A stretch of DNA of 64,000 nucleotides from NCBI RefSeq assembly GCF_910592395.1, contig NC_088315.1:15795808-15859807 (forward strand), given 5' to 3'. This stretch comes from Lineus longissimus. Taxonomy: Eukaryota; Nemertea; Pilidiophora; Heteronemertea; Lineidae. Shown one piece after another: positions 4,553 through 59,200 of this stretch. Every line of letters begins with the position of its first letter. Positions within the stretch are counted from its first letter, which is position 1. Under the pieces are notes generated by a model. That model was not told the DNA's origin. It worked only from the letters and a program-made list of their open reading frames with translations, and ran no database searches. The position numbers and the translations under genes were made by a program.

Positions 4553-4829
4553 GTGCTTCTACGAAGCACATCGTTTTTTCAAAGCTGCCGTGAATTCGAT
4601 TTAAAACCAAGTTCAACCAGCCAAGTCTAGACGATTTTTGGGTTCATTCACCTACGGAGTAGACCGCCAAACTAATCTTGGCATTAGTATTGTCCAGTCT
4701 ATTTAATTATAGACATTTTCTTAGCTAGCTTAGTCGACCCGGCTCCATTATTTTGATCTTGGTAGGGTAGAGTTAAGTAGGCTATTCTCCGCTCTATTGT
4801 AATGAACAAGACTCAGATCCATTGCAATA
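4553..4829 (+). promoter_or_regulatory. DIRS element 2 leader region
   Basis: This 277-bp stretch lies between the left terminal repeat and the first open frame. By position it should hold the start of transcription. No clear promoter motif is seen. Confidence 0.3.
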
Positions 4830-7136: not shown

Positions 7137-7217
7137 CTCCCCCCTCCTTTCTCCTCCCGGACGCAAAAAGGAGCCGACTCCGGTAGTCGGGGGCCGTCTG
7201 CAAAAATTTGCAGACAT

Positions 7218-8136
7218 TTGGGACGATTGGTGCCCAAAGGGGTCCCCAGTCCCAAACATGTTGAGGTACGGAGTGAAACTAGATTTCAACCGTACCCCCC
7301 CCCGACTACCATATATCCAACCCCAGTTCAGCCATCGAAGGACCCAGTCAAGGCCTCTGCCCTCCAAGCAGAGGTCGCGACATTACTGGAGAAGCAAGCT
7401 ATCCAGGTCCTTCAAGATCCATGCTCCCCCGGCTTTTACAGCCACGTTTTCTTGGTTCCCAAGAAAGCAGGGACATGGAGGCTGATCATAGACCTTTCCA
7501 GGTTAAGCACCTTCTTGAATGTTCCTCATTTTAAGATGGAAACCACCAGGTCTATAGCAACGGCGATACAGCCCAACGATTGTATCGATGGATTTAACGG
7601 ATGCGTACTTACATGTACCGATCCATCCAGACTATCAACACTTCCTTCGATTCCATTACGAAGGAAAGACGTATCAATTCAGGGCCCTGCCGTTCGGTCT
7701 GGCATCGGCACCCCTAATTTTTACAATTTTCACAGCCTTCGTCGCTCCCTTTCACGTGATGGGGTTCAAGCTCCATCACTACCTAGACGATTGGCTACTC
7801 CGTTGCAAATCGCGGGAACTACTACTGCAACAACTTCAGGTTCTAAAGCAAAAAGTAGTTTCCGCAGGTTGGATTATCAACGAAACAAAGTCAGAATTCA
7901 TACCATCCCAAGACTTCGTTTACGTTGGAGTTCGGTTCCTTACGGCCATAGGGAAAATGCTGCCCCCCCCCCCCCCCCTAGACAGGATAAAGAAAATTCT
8001 TCATCTCGTCGCAGAATTCAGAGGAAGGACTCAAGCTCCCGCAAGGCGATGCTTGAGCCTTTTGGGACTTCTGAATTCGGCAGCAGACCAAATCCCCCTT
8101 GACGTCTATATATGCGTCCCATCCAGATGTTTCTAA
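7218..8136 (+). pseudogene. DIRS element 2 reverse transcriptase, broken by frameshifts
   Basis: The RT begins in one frame (PKKAGTWRLIIDLSRLS) and continues near base 7585 in another frame with the catalytic Asp of LTDAYLHVP and the YLDDWLL box. A long C run near 7967-7979 encodes a Pro stretch. Near 8100 the frame breaks again before RNase H. At least two small indels separate parts that are one protein in relatives, so this RT cannot be made as is. Confidence 0.85.
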
Positions 8137-10132
8137 TGTCTCTATGGAAACCCCACAGGGACCCATTAGACAAGTTGGTATTGATACCTCAATACCTACT
8201 CAAGAACGTCTGGAACTTCTGGGAGTCGGAGACTCGTCTCCAAAGCGGTGTAGATCTTGCTCCACCGCCCCCAGAAGTGTCCCTGTTCACAGATGCTTCT
8301 CTACTAGGGTGGGGAGCACATCTGAACAACGAGGACATGTCCATAAGGGGTCTATGGACAAGGGAGGAGACCATTCTTTCAATAAATATATTGGAAATGA
8401 AGGCTGTCCTTCTTGCCGTGAGGGCTCTTTCCCTTCACCTGAAGAATCGGAGAGTAACCCTGTTCTCCGACAATTCTACAGTAGTAGCATATGTCAGGAG
8501 ACAGGGAGGCACAAAGTCCGGCATTCTTTGCCAGCTAACTTGGGAGCTTTACCATCTTTGTGCCGACCTTGGAGTATCGATATGTGCCAGACACATACCG
8601 GGCAAACGCAACATCCTTGCCGACGCCCTGTCCCGTCAGAACAAACTAGTTCAGACAGAGTGGACACTCCATCAGGAGGTTGTAGACGACCTTTGTCGCC
8701 TTTGGCAATCTCCGAAGGTAGATCTGTTCGCCACCAGGCTGAACAATCGCCTTCCCATCTATTACTCTCCACTTCCGGACGAAGAGGCCCTGGAAGTCGA
8801 CAGCCTCACAGCCTCTTGGGTCGGGCTGAACGCATATGCGTTTCCACCCCTCCCTCTCATCCAACCAGTCCTGAACAAGATCTTGACCAGCCACCCGGTG
8901 AGAATAACTCTCATCGCACCTTGCTGGCCAAATCAGGCCTGGTTCCCAGCCTTGCTGGAGCTCCTGATAGACCACCCCAGGAGTCTTCCTACTTGGAAGC
9001 ACCTCCTGTGGCACCCCCTGGGGAGATGCTACCACCAGAACCCTGGATTTTTCAAGTTTCACGCCTGGAACTTATCCAGTTGCATCTCCACCAGAGAGGC
9101 CTTTCAGACATCGCTGTCAAGCGCATGTCCGCACCTCAAAGGGGGTCTACGATTGATGTGTATCAAGGAAAGTGGTCTACCTTCACTTCCTGGTGCAGGG
9201 AGAACGGAGTTAATCCGATCTCTCCCTCTATATACAGATTAGTTGATTTCCTTATTGAATTATTCACGGAAAGACAACTATCTGTCACGGCTATAAAAGG
9301 GTACAAGTCCGCCATCGCTTCTACCCTCCGTGTTTTAAGCACCTGGGATCTTCGTTGGGAGGACCAAATAACCCCTCTTTTCAGAGGAATGTTATTAGAG
9401 CGTCCTAGACCGGTACACAACACCCCTAAATGGGACCTTTCTGTTGTCCTTAAGGTGCTCATGAGGCATCCTTTTGAACCCATGTCTATTTCATCCATGA
9501 AATATCTGACACTCAAAACGGTCTTTCTAGTAGCCTTGGCTACCACCCAACGGAGATCAGAGCTCCATGCACTTTCTTTTAAGAAGCTGGCTTTTAGACA
9601 GGGAGGGGAGGTTATCCTGGCTTTCATACCAGGATTTCTGGCGAAGAACCAGGGACCGGCCGCCTCTCGGCCCCCGGTTACTATTCCCTTTCTGTCAGGA
9701 ACGATCTCTTATGATTTTCCTGACAGAACTTAATGTCCCGTCAGGGCCCTAAAGTTCTACATAAATAGGACAAAACCTCCCGGTATCCGCCAGGGGAGAG
9801 AGCGTTTGTTTTTGTCCTATAAGGAGGGAAATAAACGAGAGATAGCGGCCGCCACTATTTCAAGGTGGATTGTGGAGACTATTCGTCTTTCCTACAACAC
9901 CTTGAAGACTTCCTCTGATCTTCGTGCGCTAGCTAACATCTCAGCGCACGAAGTTAGAGCACTAGCCACCTCTTGGGCTAACTACCGAGGAGTTGCTCTT
10001 CACGAAGTCGTTTCCGCTGCATGTTGGAGTAATCACTCCACATTCTCTCGTTTCTACCTACGAGACGTTTCTTCCCTCGTAGATGGCATGCACACAATCG
10101 GCCCGATTGTGTCTGCGGGGCATGTTGTTTGA
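8099..10132 (+). pseudogene. DIRS element 2 tyrosine recombinase with premature stop
   Basis: The recombinase domain starts near 9050 and is in one frame to 10132 except for a TAA at 9731-9733, inside the catalytic domain between the first Arg and the His-x-x-Arg. Catalytic contexts are present on both sides: QRRSELH before the stop, AHEVRA and FYLRD after it. At the stop, element 1 has a Leu codon. As in element 1, the frame stays open leftwards through RNase H and the methyltransferase-like domain to 8099. Confidence 0.85.
8112..9242 (+). CDS. DIRS element 2 RNase H - methyltransferase-like region
   Basis: RNase H keeps its acidic contexts: SLFTDASLLGWG, ILEMKAV, LFSDNST and NILADALSR. The methyltransferase-like part follows with VDLFATR, NAYAFPPLPL and LIAPCWPNQAWFP. 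The frame is continuous over 376 codons, but it is cut off from its RT by the frameshift near 8100. It lies within the open frame of the recombinase, as in element 1. Confidence 0.85.
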   Translation: MRPIQMFLMSLWKPHRDPLDKLVLIPQYLLKNVWNFWESETRLQSGVDLAPPPPEVSLFTDASLLGWGAHLNNEDMSIRGLWTREETILSINILEMKAVLLAVRALSLHLKNRRVTLFSDNSTVVAYVRRQGGTKSGILCQLTWELYHLCADLGVSICARHIPGKRNILADALSRQNKLVQTEWTLHQEVVDDLCRLWQSPKVDLFATRLNNRLPIYYSPLPDEEALEVDSLTASWVGLNAYAFPPLPLIQPVLNKILTSHPVRITLIAPCWPNQAWFPALLELLIDHPRSLPTWKHLLWHPLGRCYHQNPGFFKFHAWNLSSCISTREAFQTSLSSACPHLKGGLRLMCIKESGLPSLPGAGRTELIRSLPLYTD

Positions 10133-18400: not shown

Positions 18401-21400
18401 AGGGGAACTAAGCAGTGACTCGGCCGGGAGTCGAACCCACGACCTCCTGATCATGAGGCCGACTCTCTTCCACTGCGCTACTGCTACCGCTGCCCCATAT
18501 CGGCCTGTTGTGCATCGTGCCACATGTGTTAGAGAGTTCACTTTCATTTTGTTTTGGTAGTGAGAACAGGGGACTGGTGAGGTTGAGTTCGATATGTGGC
18601 GTGTTCTCGCTCACGGTTTGGCCACTACGGGGCAATTTGTGAAAACACAAAAAATGCGGTAACACCACCAATTTTTGTTGCAGCTTGCTGAAATTATTTC
18701 GCCAGATACCTTTTGGGAGGTGACATAATATATGATACGGGTTTTGACCTTGGCCTATATTAAAGGTCACAGAGGTCAAAGTTTGTGTCAAATTACGAAA
18801 TGTTCACATTTCGTGACCACTAAAGCCATGGATTCCAATCTCTTTTCATGTTTACCCCTGGGCGACAGTAGCTCATAGATCACCTTTCGACCTTATGTTG
18901 TTCCTCGTTTGGCCACTAGGGGGCGTTAAGCAAAAGCATAAAAGTGTAATTACTCGTCGATGGGTGGTCGGTTTGGTTTCATACTACTGGAGTACTGGGA
19001 TGTGGGAGATGGGTAGATGCTTAGTGATCTCCGGTGTATTCTTAGTCACGGTTCGGTCACTCGGGGACAATGTGAAAACACAAAAAGTGCAATGACTCTG
19101 CCAATTTTGGTCACAGCTTGCTGACATTTTTATGGCAGATACCTCTTGAGAGGGGACATAATATGTTGTATAGGTTTTGACCTTAGCCTACATGTGCTTA
19201 TCAAGGTCACAGAGGTCAACGTTTGTATCAAAATAACCACTGAAGCTATTGACCCCAATCTCTGTACATATGTACCTCTTGGTGACTGTAACTCATAGAC
19301 CAAGTTTGGACCATATATCATTCCTGCTTGGGCCACCAGGGGCGATATGCTTGATATTGGACGCAGCTTGCTGAAATTTTATGACAGGTACTTCTTATGA
19401 GGGGACATAATGTATCATACACATTTTAACCTTGAACTATTTTCAACGTCACAGAGGTCAAAGTTCATATCAAATTATGAAGCTATTGATCCCAATCTCT
19501 GTTCATATATACCCCTAGGCCACAGTTACTCATAGACCAACATTTGACCTTATATCGTTCCTCGTTTGGCCACTAGGGGGTGTTATGCAAACACATAATA
19601 AGTGTGATTGTGTTTGGGATTGTGATTGTGTTTCGCACAAGTGTGCGACTTGGATGTGGGGCCTGGATAGATGCCTAGGGATTTTCGGCTTAATTCGATA
19701 TCTGGTATGGCCGCCATTCCGGATTGTAACTGCTGAACGAGTCACCAGATGGGCTTGAATTTTCTGTGAAATGATGGGGTGGGTCGCCTATTGATTTTAG
19801 GCCTGATCCAATATCAAATATGGCAGCCAGGCGGTAATATTGGACTTCACATTCTTGACTGTAACTGCAGAACAAGTTGTGCCGATGGGCTTCGTCTTTC
19901 TGTATTGTGGTGGAGTAGGGCGGGAGAGGTGCCTTATCTGGTATCCAATGTTGCTTCCAGGTAACCATTAACCTATGTCATGATGAAGTGGGATGGGAGA
20001 GGTGTCCTATAGATGATATCCAGTATGGCTGCCAGGCGGCCATCTTGGATTTCGCATTCTGGACTGTAACTGCAGAACGAGTCACCCAATGAACTTGAAC
20101 TTTCTTTAGCATGGTTGGCTGGGTTTGGACAGGTGCCCTATTGATTTTTGGCCCAAACTGGTATCCAATATGGCTTTCAGGTGACCATCCTAGCCCATGC
20201 ATTCCAGGCTGTAATTGCTGAATGAGTCAACCAAATAGCTTTCAATTCTCTATGGTATGATGGGGTGGGTTGGGAGAGGTGCCTTATTTTTGGTCCGATC
20301 TCAAATCCAAGATGGCCACCTTGCTGCCATTGCGGTGGTCCTCTGCTGTAGAAATAAACCACAAATTCATATCAATGCAGTGCACCATGTATAATGAACC
20401 AGCCGAATCTGAAGTGATAGAAATGCTATACAACTAGACCCAGCAACCGTAAAGTACCGATCGATTTGCCCTGCTTGTGGTCGGTTTGGAGTGCGGTGAC
20501 GGGTATTCGTGCCTCTTTGTGTTACACTAGTTTGGTGCTATAAGCTAGTTGACATATTACTTCTTATGAATCAAGGAACAAAATATTTATAAGTATGCTT
20601 GTAGCTACTTTTTCCAGACAGGAAATACGATTTTTATTTGCTAAACAACTTTAATTGAAACTGAGTCATCCATTTTACGTCATTGTCCATCTGAAAAAAG
20701 GATAATTGGGTGGAAAGTGCTGCAATGTAATAGATATGTTTGCTTGTGCCTTGTACTGTATATATTCTTTCCTGTTTGTAGTGGAAGTGGGGCCTCTCGG
20801 GATGACTATTCAACGTGACTTAGGAAATGTGACAATCCGGGAGTTGGTGGCACCGATACCTCATCAGCATGATTACGAAGGTGGACCTCCTTTGCCTGAA
20901 ATAGTTGTCTTTCCTGTCCTGCCAGCAGTGATAAAAGCTTTGGATGAAATCAAAGTGTTGAAGTCAAGCAACATCTTGAAAGGGATCTGGAACAGAATTG
21001 GAGAATTGAAAACAAAGGAAGTGGCTTCTGGTGATACTGAAAGCCTTGATCTTGAAGAAGCAATTGAGGAAATCTGGACCCCAGCAAGGAAGGAATGGCA
21101 TCGAGTCACTCAGAGCCTAAAGGCTGGCAATGCCACCTTGCAAGACATTGATAAATACTTTGGCTTCTTTGAAGGAAATGTTTCCAGGATTGAGAAGGAA
21201 TTGTTGGCTATGAAAACATTTGATGACAGTGGGTTGGATGTTCCTGCGGTGCTTGAAAAAATTGAACTTTACTACAAACTAGAATGCTTTGCTTCCGGAG
21301 CCAGAGCAATTCTGGAAGTGAAAGATGAATTTGGATTGACAGGGGACTTTGAGACTATTGAGATGCTTGCAAATGTGGTGAGTAAATGAATGACTTCTTA

Positions 21401-26200: not shown

Positions 26201-29200
26201 TTTCACTCCCCATGATTAAAAGAAACCGGTTCTTCAAATTTGTACAGTACATTTTGTTTTGTGGAGAATGGTGTAGTCCTCCAAATGAAACTCATGGGAG
26301 TGAAACAGTTCTCCAGCTGAATTCTTTGAAAGGCATTTGTAGTTTTCCAGCTATTTTGAAATGTGAAAGCCTGCATTGGATTAGACCTATATTTGGAAAC
26401 AAGACCACCAACTGCGCGCCTGTTGCATCTGATATTGGTTTGACCCTGATTCGTCCACTTCATGTGTGTTGAAGCCAATGTAATGTGCAGTGACCCTCAG
26501 GAAGGATCCAGCAGCTAGCATACACTGATAAAAATACTTTAATAATGTGATGCCAGGGAGAAGTTAGTTGTGCTGTCAATTTTAGTAGGTGACGGTTTCA
26601 TCGAAGTTTTCAATGTCCAAAATAGTGTTTGTCGTTATTCTTTTCCAGAAAGTAGAGGATGTGATTCAGCTGACTGTACCAAGTGAAAAGAAAGGAGAAG
26701 ATGCCAAGAAGTACAGCTTTGAACAACTCAATGAACTACAGAGCAAATTAATGTTGGTGTCAACGTCGAAGCGAGATGGTGATGATGACATTTCGAAACA
26801 TGCCGTTGACAGATTCACAGAGGTAGGTACATGGACATCCTCTGGGTTGTGTGTGTGGTGCCAACAGCTGCCCTTCAGGGATTATCACTCAAGGTTGTTA
26901 AATCATCCAAAATTAAATTGAATTGCCCTGCCCTATTGAGTATTGCATTGATTTATTTTCCAGGATTTTTCAGTGTTTTGATTTATGAATTTTTGTGTTG
27001 ACTAAACTGAAAACAGATTCTCCAACATGTCTTAGACTGTTGCCAAGTTGCGAAAAGTTACTTTGCTCTGGAACTATTTCACATATTGTGATGCAGTGGA
27101 AGAAAAATTCATCACTCTGTTAGAAAGCTATCCAGCTGGCTATACCATGAAATTTCTGATCCTTAGTTATATGTGTTGCTGTAAAATTGTTCTTTGCTAT
27201 GCATTTTGTGACTAAGTTTCTCAACATGTTTCTTGTTGCAGATATTTGAGGGCATTGCCACTCTTGCAAGAGCCTATGTGAAAACTTGCTTGGCAGGCAA
27301 TGTACTGTTCCAAGATTGGGTGTCGACATTTTTCTGTGATCCCAGCAGAAAAGTGAATGTGCAAGTGAATATTCAACTAGAGGAAAGTATTTTGACGGAC
27401 AGGAACAAGGGTGAGATTACTGAGCAGATTCATAACTTGGCAACTTTCATGGTGGATTGTCTGAATGAATGGCGGGGTCACCTATGCGAGCAACGCTCGA
27501 TATTTCCACAGCTGAATCACTTCACAACAGCACAGATTGTCACATTGCGTGGTGAATTTGCCAAAGTCAGAAATAAGGAACAACTTGATGTGATGACCTA
27601 TGACATGCTTCACAACATCAAACATGACTGCAGACATGAAGACCTCATCGCAGCTGTTGGTTTTGCTGAGAATATGATCCGGGAGCATGCAGCTCCAGTT
27701 AAAAAGTCTCCTGAGCCAGACGAGGATGCTGAAGACGTACCTGCAGACATCAGGGAAGTCCTGGAGAAGATAACTGATGGAGATGTCTCGAAAAAGCTAG
27801 CCCGTCTCGCTATCAAGGAATGTGGCTTGGATGTTGACAAGTGTGAGTACATTACACTTGATCTTCAATTTTGAACTAGACCATCCTACAGGCAGTTCTG
27901 TAGGAAACATGTTGTTTTTTTGGAAAACCTTTGTGTTTGGTTGAGTTTCTGGTACAAGAGGAATGCTATGTGTGAAATCCCTACCCCTACTCTAGAAATT
28001 TAAACTGATCTCCACTCCCCTTCTCAGATGCGTACGTATCTAAAGTATGGCCCTTAATGATAATCGTATGTGTTTTGGTTTTAATTTCAGGTCAGCTGTG
28101 GTGCTGGGAAAACCAAGATAAAGATGATGGTGTTGATAATGAGACTGACAAAGGTTCTCAGTCTTCAGATGATGAAGCCGATGACCTTCTCGGTGACCTT
28201 AACCTCCTCCAACCATCAGTGAGAGATGTTACCTTCAACTTACTTGGTGCGTTGGACAAATCTAAAAAGTAAGCACTTGATTGCACAAGAATTCAGCGCT
28301 CAGCATACCTAATCTAGACCCTTTTCTTGGACACTGGTCTTTCTTTTCATCTGACTTTAACTCAACATATCTTAGGTTGCAACTGAATCTGCTTAGAGTT
28401 CTTATGTCACGTGTGCATGGTTTGGAGAGTTTATCTGAAAAGGAAATGTCTCTGTTTTTGCCATTTTGAGAAAACTGCCTTTTCCAAGTTGCAAATATTG
28501 ACATTTTGTGTCATTATAGTGTTTATATACTGCTGCTGGGAATACTCTGAAATTTGGAGGCCACATCAGTCGCCTTTGGGATGGTTAGCTCCAAAATGTT
28601 GGATGTTGCGGATATCATGATTTGCTCTGAAGCTCCATTTAGTACTCCGACACATGACTCGTGAAATGAAATTGTAGTGCTTAGAAGTCTTATGTAGCCC
28701 AGGACACAAACTCCTCATTAAAATGCAGTTTTTTATCTTTATCCTAGGTGGGGGCATTTCAATATTTGAAGAATGTATCATTACACAATGGCAGGAATCA
28801 TTTTAACACGATTTTGTAATAATTTCAGGGGACTGTGTGATCAGTTGAGGGAACTTTGGGATGGATTCCTTACATCTGTCTCGACTAGTGTGAAGGACTA
28901 TCTTAGTGTGGAACACCTTGGGATGATATTGGATGCACTATCAGACAGAGGTAAGCTGATATTCACATTTTAAAAGCTGGTTAGTGTAGATGATACTCGT
29001 TGTTTAACATTACAATTCTTCCATTTATTTCTTGATTTCTTTTGTACAAAATTCGATCTTCACCTTGCTCTTTCTGCGCGCCATTGAACCCCCGCGGACC
29101 AATTTCGCGTCAGCGGTATGTGACACTGAAGACAGTCACACCCTACTGGGATAACAATTTGCTCCTATCCATCCTCCCTTCCCTGTTAAACCCTTGACGG

Positions 29201-32200
29201 TAACCAAATCTATTAAACTTATATACATGTGTATGATTGGTAATGAAACATCCCAACTATAAAAACCCAAAATTCAAATTTTGCATATAATAAGAGTGAA
29301 AAATCCAAAATTAGTTAAAGCTCAAGTTAAACAAGTTTTGGATTTTGGCGTGCACTTATTTGAAAAACTATGCCAAATTATTATGCTGAATTTACTTAAA
29401 TGATTTTTTTAAAATCCTGCTGAACCATGAATCTTTTAATGAAATAAGAGTCCATAACAAACTCCAGACTTGTACTGACTTGATAGTTGGTTCAGCTCGA
29501 CTAATGCAGATCAACAGTCTACTTAGAATGTATCCTATGATGAATCACAATGCGATTTTGACACTTTGAACAATGCCAATTTTTGTCCGTCCGTCCATCT
29601 GAATGGAATATTTCTCAACTTGCACAATTATGCACAGATAACGAAACGGTTGAAACTCTGAATGCTGTCACATGCAAAAAAACTGCAAAGGTTGGTTAAA
29701 CGATTTTAAGAAGGCAAGTAACCCAAATCACTTTTGCTACAAAAATAATTATTGACCCATTTGTTTAGTCTACCTCTAAGCAAATTGACTGCTGGCATTC
29801 AGAATTTTTGTTGTTTCATTTAGTCACTAATGTCTGAATAGCGATTGATAAGCACTATTGAAATATCTCAACAAGTATCCTAGTGTCCATTTCACGAAAG
29901 GATATCCACAAGTCTCTTAATTGTCACCGTCCTTGGGTAAGGCACTTCTCGATGATGGCTAGCATGGCTTGGGCACAATGCACAAACGTCTGCGACAACC
30001 ATATGACTGGACTCCATACACCAATAAACAACTAGCATGGACTGGCCACAATGCACCAATTAACCGCTACCAGCATTTCAGCACTGCAGTGGGCACAACC
30101 TCACGATTGGCCTTATCATTGTCTTCTCGCCAACTTGGACTTTGACCACACGACGATGACCATCTCTGCCAGCGAAAACTTCTGTTACTCGTCCCACTGG
30201 CCAATCTCCTCTCACTGATCCAGGGTCTGCCACCAGTACAATGTCTCCTTCTTCTAGATCCTTCTTGACATCTCTCCACTTGGGACGCTGACGCAATAGA
30301 GGGAGCCACTCCTTTAACCACCGGGACCAAATTGCTTAAGCAGCTACTGAACTCTTCTCCATCGTCCCCATCTGCCCACCACACTGACCAATTAGAAAGT
30401 GGTTAGGCGTTATAGGGGAGTATCCTTGGAATCAGCTGACTGGTAGGATAATGGTCTGGAATTCAGTAGGGCTTCAGCTCCGGTGAACGCTGTGCTCAGC
30501 TCCTCATCCGTTATGTCTGCTTTCTGAAGTACAGCATAGATCGCTTTCTTTGCACTCTTCACCAAACGTTCATGGATTCGACCAAAGTGAAGTCCATGGG
30601 GTGGATTAAACCTCCACTTTATCCGGGTGTCTATAAACCGAAGACCAAAGACCGAAGACCGAAGATCGAAGATGGAAGACCCCCCAAAACTATAAAACGA
30701 AGATCCCCCCAACTATAAAAGGAAGACCCTGATGTCAACTATAAAACGAAGATCCCCCCAACTATAAAAGGAAGACCCTGATGTCAACTATAAAACGAAG
30801 ATCCCCCCAACTATAAAAGGAAGACCCTAATGTCAACTATAAAACGAAGATCCCCCAACTATAAAAGGAAGACCCTAATGTCAACTATAAAACGAAGATC
30901 CCCCCAACTAGAAAAGGAAGACCCTAATGTCAACTATAAAACGAAGATCCCCCCAACTATAAAAGGAAGACCCTGATGTCAACTATAAAACGAAGATCCC
31001 CCCATCTATAAAAGGAAGACCCTAATGTCAACTATAAAACGAAGATCCCCCAACTATAAAAGGAAGACCCTGATGTCAACTATAAAACGAAGATCCCCCC
31101 AACTATAAAAGGAAGACCCTAATGTCAACTATAAAACGAAGATCCCCCAACTATAAAAGGAAGACCCTGATGTCAACTATAAAACGAAGATCCCCCCAAC
31201 TATAAAAGGAAGACCCTAATGTCAACTATAAAACGAAGATCCCCAATCTATAAAAGGAAGACCCTAATGTCAACTATAAAACGAAGATCCCCCCAACTAG
31301 AAAAGGAAGACCCTAATGTCAACTATAAAACGAAGATCCCCCCATCTATAAAAGGAAGACCCTGGTGGTTTTAGACCCTCAAGTTCAGTTACTGCAGACT
31401 TGCACGTCATAACACGTGACTGAGCATCTGTATTTCAACAAGCAAGCTAGCCTGAGTGCGGCGTAGTGACATAGGAGATCAGATCATTCAGGTAAATTCC
31501 GGATTTTCCTAACACTGCATTTAGGAGTTGGCGACCGACCTGCCAGTCTCGACCCATGATGGTGGAGCCTAACCCCTGGGGACGAGATTCTAAATTACCA
31601 AGTCACCCAGAGCAGGGAAACATTGAAACTGTTGGGGGGGGGGGGGTAGCTATGGGTCGATGCGCTGCTCGGAGAAAACAAGTGTTCTGGCAATCTGGCA
31701 GGGGTTCCGAAGGTCTCCCAAGTCTTGAAAACTTTTTTTTTCTCTTATCTGTAAATTCCATTATGGAGGTAAATCACTTTTTGTATACATGTACCTCCAG
31801 GATTCCATGGAGCCGACACATGTAATTATCACTTGGCTCACTCCAAGGAATTGTCAGTTTTTTCAAAACAGAAAACAACTTGTTTGTGTAAAACATGATG
31901 ATCAAACTTTATTCACTCAACAACAAGAAATCAGCAGTAAAATCATATCTGAATGATTGAGTACAGAAGTGGAGGCTTCTCATTAATTTTATGCACACAT
32001 GTATTAAATTTACATTAATGGACTAGTTCTTATAAGTGTATTCGATTGATATGATTACCTGTGACTGGAAGAGACCGTACGGAGATCAATTTTTTTCATG
32101 AACCAAGATAGTGCTCACCTTGGTACTGGTATTTTTTCATTAGGAAATGGTCAAACTTGTCAGATGACCATTTGCCATGAGATATCCATCAATTATGCTG

Positions 32201-35200
32201 GACTTGACAAAAAAAATAGCGAAGGCCCAATGGTATCACAAATAGGCCATTTAAGTTTCATTCTTTTCAATATGTGTAAAATATGTCTCCCCTATGCCCT
32301 AAGTATAAAATCTTGACTTACCCGTCTATGCGCGATAGGGATTGGCCATGGTTCTTGCCTGCTTCTCCAACACGATCTACAATCCAACCACACACGTTCC
32401 TGACGATTTCTTTGCGTTCCAACATCCCACTCTCTCCGAATACAGCAAGTACACCATTACCATCTGCCTGTGGGTGAGTGTCCACCACAAAGAAGCAGTC
32501 CCTCCTAAACCCTATTAGAAATGAATACGGGACACACGTGTACACCCAATAACACTCCGAATCCGATTGGGTGGAACCAAATAGAAGACCTTTCTCTAAC
32601 TCCTCAACACCCCTGTCCGAATTGGCAGGACTACCGGATGGTGTTTCTTCGAATATTTCCAAGGACGGGGGGAGAAGACCAGCCTTTTTCATCACTACCA
32701 TTGCTTCCAAAGTGTCATACGTACGGTCGTGTTCTCGGATGTCATTGATCACTTCCAAAGTAATATTGATGTACTTCACAGCTAATAAAGGTACGTATGG
32801 CATACAGATTCGGGCCCTTTCTTCTGTACGTCGGAAGCAATCCCCAAAGCTAAGAAGGTACAGGCATTTGTACCGTCGTTTGCCGGAGTTGTGCCAAGTG
32901 CCACATTTTCTCCACGGGTCAGTGCTGATGCTATGATGCGATCATGGTTCTCTTGTGGGGTAGCTTGGCTTACTCCGAGAGACATAAACTCCACGTCGTC
33001 AACAATGAAAAAAGCTTGCTTCAATGTTTCAGCGGAGGGCCTTGCATATGGGTCTTGCAAGGTGAACTGTTTGTATATCCGATACAAATTTGCCAACTTG
33101 GTCCTCTGCAAGAATTCGAATTTTGGTGAAGGACGAGGCCGGTGCCCGACCCTCAGCTTTGAAGCCACAAGGTTCTTGTAGAGGTCTTGACCTCTCATAT
33201 TTTCCTCTTTAGATTCCAAGCTAAATGGATAGGGCTGGTCGGGATTAATGAGAGTGTACAAAGTCATCCCCATTGCCCATATATCCATTTTCTTGAGATC
33301 TTCCAGTGAGGCATTGGTCCCACGAAGCTCTTCCACTAGAATTTCGGGAGCCATTAATGGCAGTGACCCCCTCTGTACATTAGTTGTCGCTCCGGCGTTC
33401 ATCACCGTGTTGGTTTGGACAATGTCTGAACGACTTTCCCCGAAATCAGTTAGCTTACATAATAATGGAGAGAACTCGTATGCTTCCATGAATCTTTTAC
33501 TGGATGGTTCCAGTGAACTGTAGTTCTTGTTGGATATCAATATATTCGCTGGCTTAATGTCGCGGTGGGCAACGCCTTTACCGTGAAGATACGCGAGGCC
33601 ACTAATGGCATCACTGCCAACGAGAGTAAACAAATTTAATAATGGATTGATGTCATCCAAAGAGTCAATCACGCACAACCACTGGGAAAGATTATTTACC
33701 GATTTATCAATGCCAAACGGCGCAAAGTCAAAGCATTCATATTCGCTCATAATCGCGAAAGGCATCTCACACATTGCGATAAACGAAGTTACATTTCGGT
33801 GGCTCATATCATTAAGCAGGCGACACTCTTTTAAAAAGTTGCGTTCAACATTGACTGTGTCGCCGTGAACCTTTTTAACGACGACGGGGTTGTCATATGA
33901 AACAGTATTACCCGTACATTTTGCCCGAAACACAGTCCCGTAAGCTCCTTGCCCGATCTCTTCTACGACACTCAAATCGGCCCATTTGAATTTCTTGAAA
34001 AATGTCTCGCACTTCTGTTTACCTGACACATTCAATTTTGGTAATTTAAAAGCCATGTTTGAAAACTGATAAAGGGAATCCTGAAAATCAATGTCAATGA
34101 AAACTAGCAGGCAAGTGCCATGTAGACATCGCCTGCACGTGCACGTTTGGATTGTTTTTCTGTATGTAGGACCAATTCCATATTGGCCGTGTGATCAACT
34201 AACCTGCTGGGAGCCTATGACGATACACACACATGCACATAGAAACAGCTTCTGGACGAAGCTGAGGGCTGGCTATGATGAGTACAGTGAGAAACTAGGT
34301 CATATTGGAGCACGGCTGCATGGTAACAGGTACGGGGCTCCCCGCCTTATGTAAACTGTGCCACTAAGCTGCTAAGGCTAGACACGACTGGTGTAGTACC
34401 CGGTACACTTACTTTCTCAAATCATTAATGTAGCATGGACCGAAAATGAAAACAAACTGTGCAGTAACTGAACATGAGAATGAAAACCATCAGGGTCTTC
34501 CTTTTATAGATGGGGGGATCTTCGTTTTATAGTTGACATTAGGGTCTTCCTTTTATAGTTGGGGGATCTTCGTTTTATAGTTGACATCAGGGTCTTCCTT
34601 TTATAGTTGGGGGGATCTTCGTTTTATAGTTGACATTAGGGTCTTCCTTTTATAGATGGGGGGATCTTCGTTTTATAGTTGACATTAGGGTCTTCCTTTT
34701 ATAGTTGGGGGATCTTCGTTTTATAGTTGACATCAGGGTCTTCCTTTTATAGTTGGGGGATCTTCGTTTTATAGTTGACATTAGGGTCTTCCTTTTATAG
34801 ATGGGGGGATCTTCGTTTTATAGTTGACATTAGTGTCTTCCTTTTATAGTTGGGGGGATCTTCGTTTTATAGTTTTGGGTGGGTCTTCTATCTTCGATCT
34901 TCGGTCTTCGATCTTCGGTTTATAGACACCCACTTTATCCCTCGAATCACTCCATCTTTTGTCATCTTCACTTGGTCCAGCTGGGTGATCAATTCCATCA
35001 ATTCTCGGTTAGCCCCAACGAAATTTGTACCATTGTCCAGAGTTACTTTTACTGGGACGCCTCTACGGTGAGTGAATCTGTTGAAGGCATTGAGAAATGA
35101 GTTGGTGTCTAAAGCATATGCCATCTCCAAGTGTACTGCTCTCGAGGCATGGCAAATAGACACAGGTATCTTTTAGTTTGTACTCTCTCTCTTCCTTGCT

Positions 35201-38200
35201 TGGTGAGAAACGGTCCAGCATAGTCGAAGGAAGTAACTTAGAAGGCTCTCATAGGTGGGCACACTCTTGTCCTCGGCAGGGGGGTCATCAATTGTGATGC
35301 TACTCTTGTCTTCTTACGTTCACAGGCTGCGCACTTTGCCTCCCTATCCCGGATCTCCTCTCGGCCTCTTATAATCCAATACTTGGCTGACATCTCTGAC
35401 AGGATCTTGTTTGTTCCAGCCACGTGATTTTCTCTTTCATGGTAGAATCTCACCAATAACTGGGTCACTTGGTGTTTTCTCGGAAGTATGATCGGGAACT
35501 TGGCTTCATAAGACAGATTTTCAGCATAGGTTAGATGACCGTTGCTACGAAGGATGAAATCAGCATCTAACTTTGGCGTCAGGCCTGCTATCAGACTGGA
35601 CTTGTGCAGCTCCCTTCCATGGCATAACGCGCTGTACTCTTCTGCAAAGGCTACTTTCTGGCACTGTCTAATCAAGAGTAACTCAGCTGCCTTCCTCAAC
35701 TTCTAGTTCTCCTTTCTACCTCTCAGTGGGGGTCGCCTGACAATTTCCGATAAACCACTGCCCCCATGCATGAAGACGTGTCAATCTCTGCCAGCTCGAG
35801 AATCGGGAAGGATCTAGTCTTATATCTGCAAGCTTCATAACTTGCTTCAGGCTGCTCTTTTCTTCCAGACTCAGGTAGCTGCTCTCATTCTTCATTTCAT
35901 CCTGGACTTCATTGCCCTGTTCCACAACTCTCTCTGGCCACTCTGATGGATCCCTCTGAAGAAACTCCGGGCCGTCCCAACATAGGCTCGACTCCACTTA
36001 GTCCTTTGCTCGTACTCCTCTTGAAGGCAGGTCTGCAGGGTTTTCTTTGGTTGGCACATATCTCCACTGTTGCGGGTTTGTATGTTGTTGTATCAGGCCT
36101 ACTCGGTTTGCAACAAAAGGTTTCAGTTTTCTGCTTGGTCTCTTTATCCACCAGAGGAGGTTCTGGCTATCACTCCAAAAATTCACCTCCTTGACATTGT
36201 TATCCAATGCTGCTACAATGCTCAGATTGAGTTGAAGTCCTAACACAGCCGCCATCATTTCTAGTCTTGGGATGCTCACAGAGGTTAACGACGCTACTTT
36301 GGTCTTGAATGCTACAATCCGTGTGGCCACCATTCCACTCGCATAGATGCTTCTTGCATACACCACATATGGATCTTTCGAGGCATCGCCAAAGGTGTGA
36401 AGTTGGAAACCAGTCGTCTCCTCAGCTAGCTGTAAGCATCTAGGAATCCTGGCCCTGGCGAACTCTGTTATTTCAACTATCCAATCCCAAGCTTTCTTTT
36501 CAATTTCTTCCGGCAGTTCCTCATCCCATTCAACGCCACACATCCTCACATCTTGCATGATGATTTTTCCTTGGATAACATATGGCGACATCAGCCCAAG
36601 GGAATCAAAAATGGTTGCTATTAATCGCAGAAGGCTCCTCTTTGTAAGCTTGAGATCAGCAGCAGGGGGTGTCAGCTGATAAGCGAAAGCATCTTCTTGA
36701 GCCTTCCACAGCACTCCAAGGACCTTTTCTGATGGCAAGTATCCCTCCTCCGAATTGATCTCTGAATTGATCTTCATCTGGTATGATGGCTAAAACTTCG
36801 GGTGAGTTGGAAAACCACTTTCTGGCATGCATCCCAGCTCCTTTCCACAATGCTGATAAGTCTCTGTACAGCTTTTTACCCTCTTCATCATCGTTTACAG
36901 AATCTAGACTGTCATCCATATAGGTTGACTTCAAGATAATCTCTGCTGCTCTTGGGTACTGCTTCCAATGGGCTCTTGCATGCTCTTGGGAAACCAACTG
37001 TGCCAGGAATGGTGAGCTGTTGATTCCAAAAACCAGTCTCTGGAACTCGAATGTCTCTGGATCTCTGGTCCTGTCGAGGTCCCGCCATATAAATCTTTTG
37101 TCTTGCCTTGTCTGCGTAATACTGGGAAGTGTGGTAAATACCACTGATGACTCTTCTTTTCATCATCCCGATCTTCCTCTGACTGCTTGATCTTCTTTAT
37201 GTAGGCCTTTCCTTGATACTGTTGAATGATCTGACAGTAACTTTTGGCGATCTCTGGGTGTTATAGCAGCTTGTTTTCAGTTGACATCAGCCTCTGTTCT
37301 GCCATTTCACTGCTATCTGCCATTTCTGGTTACAGCTGTCCTTTCCATGGTATGGCCACCTGATACTTGTCCTCCACCAACTTGATTGATGATCTGGCAT
37401 TCTGCAGCACTTTTCGGTCACTCTCATTCAAAGGGGTTCGTCCCTCATCCAATTTGCTGATGTTCCCTATCTCCCAAAACGCTCTTAGCTGATCATTGAT
37501 TTCCTGCAGCAATGGTGGATCTTTAGTGAAGAAGCTGTAGACCATGTTGGTTGCCTCCCTCTTTTGGCCCAAGGGAGTCCCTACCGGACCAATGCATGTC
37601 CATCCCAATCTTGTCTGTCTTGATGTGGGTTCACCAGGTCGACCAATGACGTCTATAATGCTTTGGTGTAGCTCACTGTAGTCTGCGCCAATCAGGAGGT
37701 CCACTGAATTCCTCTTACCAATCTTTGGGAACTGGATATCTTTCAAATGGCTATATTGACTATGTTGCAAAGACCAGTCTGTAGTTCTCAAATCTCCCGT
37801 TACTTTATCAACTGTCTTGGCCCAAATCTTCAAATCCACCTGTCGGTTCAAACTTTCTATTCCCACCTCAACTGACATGGTGGTGAATGTCTTCAGCTTT
37901 CCGTTGAGGACGTTAACTGTGGTTTGTTCAATTTCTCCCTGAACTCCGAGTTCTGCAGCTAAGTTTGCATCTATATATGTTGAGGTACTTGCATCATCTA
38001 ACAAGGTGTTAGTCTTTATTCTTTTCCCTCCATGCTTCACTATGACCGGAACAATTCTCAGCGCAATTTCACTTGAGTTCTTTGATGCCAATGTCACTGT
38101 AGCCATCGTGCTCTCTTCCGTGTCTGGGTTGTTACCACTCGCTTCCAAGGGTTGACGACTCTCAGCTCCCTTTGCTTTTCCATGCAGCAACCGGTGGTGT

Positions 38201-41200
38201 GTCTGTTTGCAGCCATCTATCTTGCATTGCCGTGTCCTGGGGCACTTCTCTGCCCTGTGACCATTACCACTAAGACATTGGTAGCAAAGTTTCTTTTCCT
38301 TAGCTGTTTTCCACCGCAGGTCCACTGACATTGCCTTGAAGCTGTCACATTCCCATGCTCCATGCTCCGAACCGCACAAGTTGCATGATCTGGTGTATTT
38401 TCCCATGGCTCCCGACTGAGACTGTGATTGACGGTTTGTGCTACTGTGTGACGTGACAAAGCTCCTATCTTTTCTTTGGTCTTTCTTGGCAAAATCCCTG
38501 ACACCGTTGATGGTTTCCATGGCGTTGACTTGAAACTCGGTTTCTTCATTTCTTCGACGAATTCTCGAAGCGACATCACAGTTTTCTCTTTTGCTTTGTC
38601 ATAGGCCCATCTGTGGTAGCGTGCAAGGAGAACCTCACTCAGTTTCCGCTGTATGGACAAAAACAAACTGCCACTGCCCAATTCAGATTCCTGGTGCGCA
38701 TCCTTCAAATTGACTGTGATGATGTCCAATAACTCTGCCAACTTTTCTTGATCCTTTGCATTCCCATCACGGACTTGCTTGAACTTCTCCAGTTCGTCCA
38801 GTCTCAAGATGAGCTGCCTTCTCTGGCCTCCATATTTTCTCTCCAAGCGATCCTTGGCAACTTCATAGGCAGAAGCTGAATACCCCAATCCATCAACAAC
38901 TTTCAGTGCTTCACCAGTAAGGCGCATTCTCGAAGTCTCAACAGTTTCTTTCTGCGGTGATAGAAGTTTCATCGACGCAACTTGTAAAGGCAGCCTTCCG
39001 GGCTGAGTAGTTTCTCTTATTCCCACTAAACTTTTGGATGGTTACACGGGTTAGATGTCTTGAGGTTTTTGATTTGACCTACTTTTCAAGGTCAAAGAGG
39101 TCAAATAGCGTAAATAAGCCGATGGTGGCACGTAGCTATTGACCTGAATTCGGTACATACAGTAGAACCTCTCTATTAAGCACACCCTCGGGACTGACAA
39201 GTGCTGACCTTAGTAGAGAGGTGTCCTGATTAGAGAGGTCAAATTGAATGGAAACAACCAATTTGGACCAAACCTAGTGTCCTTAATTATGCCGCCGCCA
39301 TAGTGGGGGCATTATGTACTTGGGTGGTTTACGGCCGCCGCCGCCGCCACGCTGAATTCTGGACTATAACTCAAGATCCCCTTTTTCGGCTGACTTGAAA
39401 TTTTTAGGGGGTGGAGGCCTAGTGTGTCAAAGGGTCCCTATTGATTTTGGGCACGTTCCACAATCCAATATGGCCGCCAGCCACCATCTTAGGTTTTTGC
39501 ATTCCACTCGTTAACTGAAGAACTAGAGGTCTGACAGACTTCAAACTTTTGTGGTGTAGTGGTCTATGGTAGGGGAGGTTCCCTATTGATTTTGGGCGCG
39601 TTCAAAAATCCAATATGGCCGCAAGCCACAATCCTAGGTTTTTGCATTCCGCTTGTTAACTGAAGAACTAGAGGGCCGACAGACTTCAAACTTTTGCGGT
39701 GTAATGGTCTATGGTGGGGAAGGTTCCCTACTAATTTTAAGCGCGATCCAAAATCCAATATGGCCACCAACCGCCAACTTAGATTTTTGTATTTCGATCG
39801 TTAAATGAAGAACTAGAGGTCCGACATACTTCAAACTTTTGTGGTGTATTGGTCTTTGGTAGGGGAGGTTCCCTATCGATTTTTGGCACGTTCCAAAATC
39901 GAGATATGGCCGCCAGCCGCCATCTTAGATTTTTGCGTTCCGCTTGTTAATTGAAGAACCACATGTCCGACAGACTTCAAGCTTTTGTGGTGTAATGGCC
40001 TATGGTAGGGGAGTTTCCGTACTGATTTTGGGCGCAATACGAAATCCAGGATGGCCGTCAGTTGGCATCTTGGATTTTTAGCATTCCCACCTACAGCTCC
40101 AGAAGCACTTGTGTGAGGGAGCTGATATTTCTGTGGTATGATCGCCTAGGGTAAGGGAGGTGCTGTATAATTTTCTGGCCCCACCTGATATCCGATATGG
40201 CCCCCAGGCCGCCATCTTGTTACGTATCAATCATGAATTAATTGAAAATTGGCTTGCCAGCTGCTGTTGGTTGAAGACCAAAGACCTTTCTCCACATTTG
40301 GATTTCATGCTGCGTAATCGCCAATATGCAAAAGGGATTTCATCGTCATCATCATCATTATGCCCTAGCTAAAGGAAATTGAGGTGGGGCATTATGTTTT
40401 CAGCTGGTTTCCGTGTCCGCCGCCGCCGCGTCCGCCGCAACCTATTCCGGACTATAACTCAAGAACCGGTGGCCAGATTCATCTGTAATTTCTATAGTGA
40501 ATTGGGGTGGATAGGGCAAGGGTCCCTATCGATTTTGGGCGCGCTATGAAATTCAATATGGCCAGCAATAGGCCATCTTGGCTTTCCCATTGGCTTTCCC
40601 TATCGATTTTGAGCGCGCTCCGAAATTCAATATGGCCAACAATAGGCCATCTTGGCTTTCCCATTCCGGATTATAACTCAAGAACAGGTATCCCGATTGA
40701 TCTCTAAATTCTATGGTTTAATAGGGTTGATTGGGGGAGGTTCCCTATCGATTTTGGTTGCCCTCTGAAATTCAATATGGCCAGCAAGAGGTCATATTTT
40801 CCTTTACACCCCATAACTTCAAAACCAGTTTAGTGACGGGCCTGTGGACACTGGTGCCCTCAGAGCGGGGGCATACATTGTGATTCGCCTCGATTGCATT
40901 ATATGTCTAGTTGAGAGGTTGTCCTTAATAGAGAGGTTTCCGCTAAGGGAGGTTCCACTGTATGTAGCACTAAGTTTTGAAACATTGTAGACTAAATTTT
41001 GGTCCGGTTTGAATCCAGGTTTGGCCAACAGGTGGCTAAAAGTGAAAATAATAACATATCTGCGAGAGAGGTGAGCCCAATGGCCCTTGCCATTTCATTA
41101 TGCATCACTTAATTTGCAATTGATCAGCTGTACTCTGAATGCATAACTGGACACAAAATACAAAATCTGATTTTTTTTCCCCAACTTCTGTTAATCGTGG

Positions 41201-56200: not shown

Positions 56201-59200
56201 TCTATTGTGTTTCAGGATGAGTGTAGCTTCGTCAGTCTTCGCGATGTTGAGAGGACAATGAATGTGATGGCGTGGTTCTATGAACATATTGAACTCCTTA
56301 ATGAACGGATGGATGATTCAGATGAAGAGGTAAATTTTATTTTGACATTTTTTCTGCGCTGGGGAAGCATCTTTGAACTCCCATGGAAAGAGAAATTTTT
56401 ATCTTATCTTCATTGTAATCCTGACCCCCTGCAATATGATGCTGGCATCAGTATGTAACATGTTCAAAAGTAAAATATGTCAGTGGGACTCCCTGTCATT
56501 CACAATGGTTACTCGACAAGGCAGTACATTTTTCTGGTTGTGCATGGGATGCTTTATTTTGACTGGGATTTAGTGCAAGGCTTTTTCTATGATAATTGAT
56601 ATTTTGGGTCAGATTTGAAACCATAGGTGACATAAAATGCATGAATGTAATATTGTATTGAAGGGTTATCAACTCAAATCATGCATGCAATTTTGGAGAA
56701 GCCTCATAGCCTAGTGGTTCACACTTACACTGCTGGCTGCCATTCGAATAGGCTTGGGTTTGATTCTGGGAGTCGTAACTCTAGATGAACTAGCCTGGCT
56801 TTCATGGAGCTTAAATTCCAAGCACTGCATAGCAAGTTTGACGCTCAAAATCTGATGAAACTTAAAGCTGTTGTGCTCTTACCCGAGCTTTTACCCGAGT
56901 GTCTATGCCAGGGCAAGTAAATATCGCACAGAGGTGGACCGAATAGCCTTCAAGTGGACTTCTTCCCTCTTCAGGATGAAGACACAGTTGATGATGAAAC
57001 ACGTTCTCTGATCCTAGCACTGGGCGTGTGCTACCATGCATGTCTGCAGGAGGGAACCAGACGTGCTTACCGCGAATACATAGTAGAATATTTCGAGGAT
57101 CCATGCGCCCTTCCACGTCCCAGTTGTGTTCTTGAGGAAATCAATAGGTATGGGAGTATTGCAACTTTTTTTACTAAGTACATGCTTTTGTGCAGCTCTG
57201 TCTGTGTTTGAAATAGATATAGGTCAAAATAGTAGTCTGCATCCTGTTATAACCAGAGTTTTTCAATATACTCCATCTCTCAATACTTCAAACCCCTGTT
57301 TAAAAACAATTTCGCCAATTTTAGCAATGTGAAAATTTCACAGTTTACCCTGGGCAGTTTACACTATTCTTTATGCCATTGGTCTCTTGGCGTTGCTTGA
57401 CTTTGTACAGGGGTCAAATTTCGTCTAATTTAACTATTTGATCAACTTCACTAGCTGCACCTCTGGTTTGCCACTTAGCTAAACTGTGAAACTGACATGA
57501 GCATCTGAACTTGAAATGAATTTGAGAACATAATACAAGATTAAAAGCTGACAGGTCAAAAAAACTTTCCCGGGAGGTCTGAAGCCTAGCACCCAGGAAT
57601 ATTCATGAAGTCCATTTGCATGGATCTTTGATCTGCTAGATGAAAGAATTGTTGAGATTTCAGTGTATTACACGAAAATATTTTATTTACAGATGTCAAG
57701 ATCTATTCCTGAAGGAAGCACAAATCACAGAGCCTAACATTGCTCATAATCAGGCTTTGAAGGAGAACCTGTTTATGATGGTTGTATGCATTGAGCTGAG
57801 GATACCTCTATTCCTTGTTGGAAAGCCTGGAAGTTCAAAGTCTTTGGCGAAACTCATTGTGACAGATGCTATGCAGGGTGAGACAGCAGATTCTCCTCTC
57901 TTCAAGTCATTGAAACAGGTGAGAGTTCAGGGCAGATCCAGAATTCATATAAAAAGTGGGGATGCCATCTCACTTCACACTGGAAGTGGAATTCCTGCTC
58001 AATTTCATAGTTTTTCAAAATAAAAAAAGCGAGGTCAGTTTCAAAGAAAGTGAAAACGGGATTATCAACCATTTCACTATGGTAGCCCATGGTCCGCCAT
58101 GCAATGGCGCATGCTACAGTTGACCAAAATACAATAACGCATTACGTGATACAAGGTCCTTGCCGCAAATGACGCTGTATCTAGTGGAATATTATCGATG
58201 GTTGAGCGTCTTTTGAAAAGTGATTGGATGAAGATATGAGAGCCTGATTATTATTCCAGTCTTGGGCCTCACTAATTGAATTTGTCAAGGCCGGGGTACT
58301 GATGCTCTAAGCTTTTAAAAGGACGCTCTAAAATGTATAAATAAACGTTGATGGGCAAATTAATAACATTAAGCCTTTCGCTGCAGATGTACACCAATTG
58401 GCGACTCAAAAAAGATGTTGTACGCCGGTTGGCGACTTCGCCTATCTTGATTCCTATGCGTTATAGACTAATATGCAGTTCGGTAAATGTTCGATATATG
58501 GCAATAGTGTTTCGTTCATGAGTTTTCCTCCATGAATGCTAATGAATGGAATGAGAATAAAAGAAAACAATAGAAATTTTGGGTTGCGCAGCGAAAGGGT
58601 TAATGTGTCTTTGCACAATTTTGTTGCTGACAATGAAGAACTGGGTAAGAGCTGGATGCTAATCACTACTAAAAAAATTTACCCGAGAAAAATAACCTTC
58701 AAATATCTTAGAAAATACCCTTCACTGAAAGGTAAATGAGGGAGTAATTTGGTCCAAGCAAAAAGGTGCTAAATTACCCCTTTCATTTACCCATTGGTGA
58801 AGGATATTATCTAACGTATTTGAGGGGTATTTTTTCCTCAACTGGTACATTACCTATCCAAATGATGGTCAATTTCTATGTCTCCTCCAGGTTCACATGG
58901 TGTCCTTCCAATGCTCACCACTGGCCACCCCTGACGGCATCAAAGGCACATTTAGTCAGTGCGCAATGTTCCAAGAGAAGAAGAACTTGGAACAGTTTGT
59001 GTCTGTCGTGGTGTTAGATGAGGTCGGACTGGCCGAAGATTCACCTAGAATGCCATTAAAGGTGAGTTAGAGGGTTTTACCTATGTTACATCCATTCTCT
59101 TCTACAGCGTCAGTTCCTGCAGGGTCTCTATGTTTCCTCTTGCTTTCATTAAAATCCCCCAATATCGTTAATAGAGCCAATTATGTCCTAGTTGACGCTT

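Follow-up and report, generated by a model that had tools for sequence, protein, structure and literature searches.

What does a protein kinase, joined to a protease-like tail, do between the inverted arms of a foldback transposon that lies among the exons of an RNF213-like gene? The question arises from a stretch of 64,000 nucleotides of the ribbon worm Lineus longissimus (assembly GCF_910592395.1, contig NC_088315.1, positions 15,795,808 to 15,859,807 of the forward strand), here called the window, in which the transposon occupies positions 30625-34931. A preliminary description of the window regarded it as a mobile carrier of a host-type enzyme. The analysis reported here points elsewhere. 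The window copy is very probably a non-autonomous, internally deleted foldback-type Mutator-like element (MULE), whose long form encodes the kinase fused to a VTD-like deubiquitinase domain and then a MULE transposase; both enzymes would serve as accessory transposition factors. Marks of mobility, a long relative, the domain order and recurrence in other animals were all observed.

The window element has perfect inverted GGGTGTC ends, inverted arrays of 49-bp units and a flanking 9-bp duplication. With up to two mismatches allowed, the terminal sequence GGGTGTCTATAAACCG matches the window twice, at 30625-30640 on the plus strand and 34916-34931 on the minus strand, both times exactly, compared with a mean of 0.01 matches expected by chance in shuffled sequence. 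The long inverted tandem-repeat arms of the foldback structural class are present (the longest arm pair measures 224 nt with 97% complementarity), and arrays are also found at both ends of a much longer copy on contig C3. In the host assembly (391 Mb, in which the contig of the window is C8), the 66-base left end gave at least 40 scored matches at 98-100% identity (104 candidates), a lower bound for the host genome. The 40 scored ends resolve into 29 copies, both ends having been scored in 11 of them. Thirteen stretches were inspected, seven with both ends and six with one; all seven two-ended copies are flanked by perfect 9-bp duplications, each of a different sequence. The earlier assignment to mobile foldback, MULE-related elements is thus borne out by the ends, the arrays, the duplication and the further copies that a search for the ends, as proposed there, has brought to light.

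The preliminary description also proposed to test whether kinase genes lie repeatedly between such arms, and here the kinase does: it is present at 99-100% identity in four copies (the window and contigs C11, C3 and C13), all of which have element ends. The C11 copy (3,261 bp) has a truncated tail, and in the C13 copy (6,329 bp) the tail is interrupted by a 1,151-bp insertion. Other kinase traces in the assembly are a 53-residue piece at 96% identity on C4 and, on C1, a broken relative at 75%. In two short copies, the duplications GATCTTCCC (L001:97-105) and CTATAAACC (L003:611-619) resemble the element's own repeat and end sequence, as if copies inserted into each other.

The origin of the window copy is best read from the C3 copy (C3:10315112-10329969, 14,858 bp, duplication GTTTCAACA), whose ends are the same. 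Here kinase and tail form a single unbroken stop-to-stop frame of 625 codons, and the same strand of the same element carries two transposase frames, one of 188 codons for the N-terminal part of a MULE transposase and one of 738 codons for the MULE core. Over 734 columns the longer frame shares 42% identity with P0121, a protein of 818 aa in which Pfam sees MULE (23.5 bits) and SWIM (20.0 bits, cut-off 19.6). Its own best Pfam family is PF10551 (MULE; 23.3 bits, E 8.9e-5, below the 27.6-bit cut-off), and the transposase has the acidic motifs TDGE and NQSE. The transposase frames lie in a 9,882-bp stretch that is missing from the window copy, where P0121 and the C-terminal part of the gene model P0002, used as queries, found chance matches only; the window copy is therefore a non-autonomous derivative. 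Since the C3 copy combines the same ends with an unbroken kinase-protease and a MULE transposase, the window copy arose by internal deletion and its kinase is no chance passenger from the host. As for MULE membership, the duplication of about 9 bp is present and the long copy encodes a MULE DDE transposase; the window copy has no transposase. Another 832 bp, beside the start of the C3 kinase, are missing in the window, C11 and C13 copies, reflecting an insertion that came later to C3 or else a deletion that is older and common to the other three.

Helitrons insert by a rolling-circle process, have neither inverted ends nor target duplications and encode a RepHel protein. A Helitron identity was rejected, given the inverted ends, the 9-bp duplications and the long C3 frames, which encode kinase-VTD and MULE.

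In the window copy, the kinase frame matches Pfam Pkinase (E 1.4e-29 with the 470-aa frame as query) and has the complete set of catalytic motifs of a eukaryotic-type protein kinase, including the glycine loop and APE. A search of NCBIfam returned kinase matches only, all far under their cut-offs. The preliminary description placed the protease-like tail in the next frame. Indeed, the Cys of NDGTNAC (codon 32862-32860) lies in the kinase frame of the window copy and the D-T-H codons (32482-32474) in the next; however, the split at 32803-32794 is damage to this copy, because in the C3 copy a single frame runs through. For the same reason, a programmed frameshift between kinase and tail was rejected. 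Likewise, the frame is intronless, as first described, only as far as the kinase-tail exon extends: this ends at a GTAAGT donor-like site, and P0002 continues past it over further exons. Over their shared parts, P0002 and P0001 (annotated as 'ULK1-like'), both Lineus longissimus gene models, are 98.9-100% identical to the window.

Structure prediction assigns the tail a papain-like fold nearest to VTDs and to M48 USP. In Foldseek searches the folded window fragment most resembles herpesvirus tegument and VTD deubiquitinases, and herpes C76 proteins top both lists. This predicted resemblance, with a Cys and an Asp-x-His, agrees with the papain-like or tegument-type site that the preliminary description had proposed to look for, and the tail is regarded as a putative VTD-like deubiquitinase domain. 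Of 26 tails that had been cut out by their Cys motif, 25 retain D-x-H, and Cys, Asp, Thr and His are invariant in the 13 tails of alignment A3, a subset of the 26. Herpes_teg_N matches three of these 13, at best with E 0.0088, below its cut-off.

The combination of domains recurs beyond this family. A joined-bait search for long proteins gave 11 matches, six with kinase and tail (1219-1670 aa) and five kinases with E above 1e-5. P0122-P0126 align to the MULE part across its acidic motifs; the C-terminal part of P0127 differs from theirs. Below cut-off, Pfam detects MULE in P0123, P0124 and P0125; it also detects SWIM in P0124 and, weakly, in P0126, and neither domain in P0122. P0124, from the sea cucumber Holothuria leucospilota, fuses kinase, tail and MULE-type transposase in one protein. 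Within the ribbon-worm genome, among the four MULE loci that rank next (42-45%), three have a kinase relative on the same strand 7-8 kb away; because two of the three are near-identical copies, they represent two families. An exon between kinase and transposase in these sister families matches Herpes_teg_N at 20.6 and 24.7 bits (cut-off 25; E 3.8e-4 and 2.1e-5). The VTD exon of L054, whose 233-codon frame is also contained in L055, matches structure 8add (E 1.3e-5; molecule name ATP-dependent DNA helicase), presumably a Helitron VTD. These exons are nearer to known VTDs by sequence than the window tail is, and no significant similarity emerged when the VTD exon of the sister families was compared with A3 by profile. 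Taken with the C3 copy, the two further families and the fused proteins elsewhere indicate that kinase and protease belong to the coding set of a MULE lineage, and the idea of a carried host-type enzyme is not supported. Of the findings that the preliminary description had named as contradicting it (a non-mobile kinase locus, a lack of other arms, a tail without a Cys/His/Asp site), none came up.

Relatives of the kinase also occur in dispersed repeats that are 94-99.5% alike over 2-4 kb (L017, L018 and L019; L023 and L025; L035-L038); the 1.5-kb flanks of L017-L019, L023 and L025 gave no match to MULE. Viral contigs scanned with P0007, alignment A1 and P0121 yielded no relative. On C20, a 1245-codon frame (L044:349-4086) has a start that is gag-pol-like by eye and ends in a fragment of the same kinase family; it was considered as a Ty3-type kinase element, a reading rejected in favour of a chimera formed from two mobile elements. 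In the coral proteins P0097 and P0105, which belong to the same kinase family, a repeated C-terminal domain (WY..EGE..LK.VFDEL) replaces the tail.

Several observations weigh against the proposed reading, and the first concern the tail. The best Foldseek match in the PDB reaches E 1.2e-3 and none falls below 0.001, the folded fragment comes without the Cys helix, and intact D-x-H is missing from P0118 (E-T-H, among the 26 tails) and from P0008 (D-P-N, outside them). PDB sequence searches with the window tail frame and with the 13-tail profile A3 found nothing credible and no VTD. Such a tail could be a papain-like scaffold, a pseudo-enzyme or an enzyme acting on another modifier, not an active deubiquitinase. 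This is somewhat unlikely, given the near-constant D-x-H, the invariant residues of the 13 aligned tails and the lead of the herpes C76 proteins in both structural lists. Further adverse points concern the transposase and its linkage. All Pfam MULE scores are below cut-off (17.9-26.8 versus 27.6 bits), and Pfam calls no SWIM in the C3 copy. The C3 transposase is split over two frames that do not join, so this copy may itself be inactive as an autonomous element. No kinase relative lies near the fourth MULE relative (C17), and the kinase relative L017 has no long inverted arms within the 4 kb examined.

The last adverse point is the pattern of substitution. The comparison between copies called for earlier was made on the four kinase copies: changes private to one copy comprise five nonsynonymous and two synonymous (418 codons), a proportion close to the 0.78 that would be nonsynonymous in the absence of selection, in numbers too small for a test. 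Among the recent copies there is no sign of purifying selection, and since 25 of the 29 copies are without the near-identical kinase, no selection to keep it is evident. Kinase and VTD might instead regulate the element, damping or timing transposition or manipulating or addicting the host, with the deletion copies that retain them acting as repressors. The shorter copies of the window, C11 and C13, which retain the kinase and show no transposase, would suit that role, but the VTD is broken, truncated or interrupted in all three, and this, with the absence of the kinase from most copies, makes such a role unlikely. Capture of a host kinase-protease gene once by a foldback element, as cargo in the manner of Pack-MULEs, could draw on the presence of the kinase in only four of the 29 copies, on the missing sign of selection and on a precedent in a foldback-type Mutator of the mosquito, Muta1NA3, which holds 276 bp of a gene for a serine/threonine kinase (PMC5225508), but is very improbable in view of the trio in the sea-cucumber protein, the other long fused proteins, the two additional families in this genome and the shared strand of all three domains in the C3 element.

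The accessory-factor reading can be put as a mechanism. Any copy that has the inverted ends can be a substrate for a MULE transposase, which excises it and reinserts it through a 9-bp staggered cut. A complete copy would supply the transposase in trans, to act on the inverted ends of shorter copies. These would arise by internal deletion; the window copy probably lost its approximately 9.9 kb between two ATAGC repeats and entered the integrase frame of a BEL/Pao retrotransposon, presumably by means of transposase supplied in this way. Kinase and VTD most likely act on the transposase complex, because in other animals they are part of the same protein and in the worm, according to an automatic gene model, they apparently form one spliced gene with the transposase. 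The deubiquitinase domain would most likely protect the complex from degradation, and the kinase would act as a switch that licenses transposition, its substrate being either the transposase or a host factor for repair, the cell cycle or silencing. Action on both phosphorylation and ubiquitin systems, as first suggested, is plausible. More broadly, there is an even chance that an unrecognised MULE lineage spread over several animal phyla has its transposase inside a signalling polypeptide (kinase - VTD - MULE core - SWIM) whose own phosphorylation and deubiquitination control transposition, and that genes labelled in these genomes as host kinases ('ULK1-like', 'TAO1') are pieces of it, some perhaps domesticated.

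The surroundings of the insertion (Table 1) qualify the claim that the element sits in an RNF213 gene. Collinear RNF213-like exons on the plus strand do flank it on both sides; its immediate target, however, was a BEL/Pao retrotransposon and not RNF213 coding sequence, a direct insertion into which was rejected since the 9-bp duplication sits in a BEL/Pao frame. Two minus-strand frames that cross the element edges (one reading ...GVIRGIKW) are, by eye, the halves of a single BEL/Pao integrase with the duplication between them; Pfam recognises neither half and sees Integrase_H2C2 adjoining, below cut-off. In the frames right of the insertion, matches to RVT_1, Asp_protease_2 and Integrase_H2C2 are all below the Pfam cut-offs. 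The foldback element is thus nested inside a BEL/Pao retrotransposon inside an RNF213-like gene. That gene is spread around nested transposons in the window. A 145-bp tandem array of 4.5 copies (39431-40087) adjoins the BEL/Pao frames, and two related long plus-strand coding blocks (2-2332 and 4806-10132) resemble, by eye, tyrosine-recombinase (DIRS-type) retrotransposons; Pfam gave no match in 2-2329 at a threshold of E 0.01.

Table 1. Features of the element, its insertion site and related exons (window positions unless a locus is named)
Feature	Position	Strand	Remark
RNF213-like exon	20706-21386	+	E 1.6e-10
RNF213-like exon	27212-27871	+	E 2.5e-11
Remainder of integrase-like BEL/Pao frame, left of insertion	30410..30615	-	by eye, without Pfam match
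Target-site duplication, left copy	30616..30624	.	ACTTTATCC, 9 bp
Left terminal inverted repeat	30625..30690	+	GGGTGTCTATAAACCG, then 7-bp ACCGAAG array
Left foldback arm	30688..31363	+	49-bp unit x 13.9
Deletion scar ATAGC	32216..32220	.	5 bp; at both edges of the 9,882-bp C3 stretch absent from the window copy
GTAAGT splice-donor-like site	32316..32321	-	ends kinase-tail exon; gene model P0002 appears spliced here
VTD-like (tegument-type) cysteine-protease domain, putative	32321..32898	-	in two frames
Protein kinase frame	32782..34056	-	424 aa, Met 34056, stop 32782; includes first tail part with Cys
Reading-frame break	32794..32803	-	window copy; C3 copy open there
Right foldback arm	34488..34874	-	inverted 49-bp unit x 8.0
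Right terminal inverted repeat	34866..34931	-	
Target-site duplication, right copy	34932..34940	.	ACTTTATCC, 9 bp
BEL/Pao frames, right of insertion	34941..38598	-	Peptidase_A17 E 8.7e-40; integrase core by eye
RNF213-like exon	57640-58020	+	E 1.1e-27
Sister-family separate VTD-type exons	L054:3851-4552, L055:2580-3281, L056:3528-4352		GSQC ... D-S-H

The usual view is that an animal cut-and-paste transposon requires little beyond its transposase. A lineage in which a kinase and a deubiquitinase-like domain are regular components would offer a defined system for studying how such an element manipulates signalling and protein turnover in its host, and would connect deubiquitinases of the tegument type with a second class of transposons in addition to Helitrons. 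It is also a warning that annotated 'kinase genes' of invertebrates can be transposon genes. Among the papers listed in searches of the PMC open library, none was seen to describe a full kinase, or a kinase with a VTD, as part of a MULE's own coding set, and the main text of PMC6431247 and PMC8277862 contains neither 'kinase' nor 'deubiquitin'.

The closest known systems each share part of this organization. A target duplication of about 9 bp is typical of MULE transposases, according to PMC3169594, which describes the Tm1 Mutator/Foldback family of root-knot nematodes. Tm1 likewise has foldback-like composite repeat ends, 9-bp duplications, one transposase-bearing copy and many short copies; however, Tm1-A encodes a 496-aa Phantom-type transposase, and the word 'kinase' is absent from the main text. 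Muta1 of Aedes aegypti is also an animal foldback-type Mutator, one non-autonomous copy of which carries the kinase gene piece cited above, but its 504-aa transposase comes without kinase or deubiquitinase and the piece is a captured host fragment (PMC5225508). VTD deubiquitinases of Helitrons and herpes tegument share the papain-like fold with Asp-x-His and, as here, can be borne by transposons; those published were described in Helitrons (Helentrons), in a main text in which neither 'kinase' nor 'mule' occurs (PMC9741609). There, Erven et al. proposed protection from degradation as the role of Helitron VTDs. Kaonashi (KIU) MULEs regularly carry a ubiquitin-family cysteine protease, Ulp1, whose function is given as unknown in a review (PMC13317346); they differ in being plant non-TIR MULEs with Ulp1 instead of a VTD, and the review is without the word 'kinase'. 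DNA transposons with a TET/JBP dioxygenase (PMC12730594) and KolobokP with a homing endonuclease (PMC9587614) are likewise described as cut-and-paste elements that have an additional enzyme among their standard components, although the enzyme and the element are different in each. Foldback MULEs, a captured kinase fragment, Helitron VTDs and plant MULEs bearing Ulp1 are thus already known separately.

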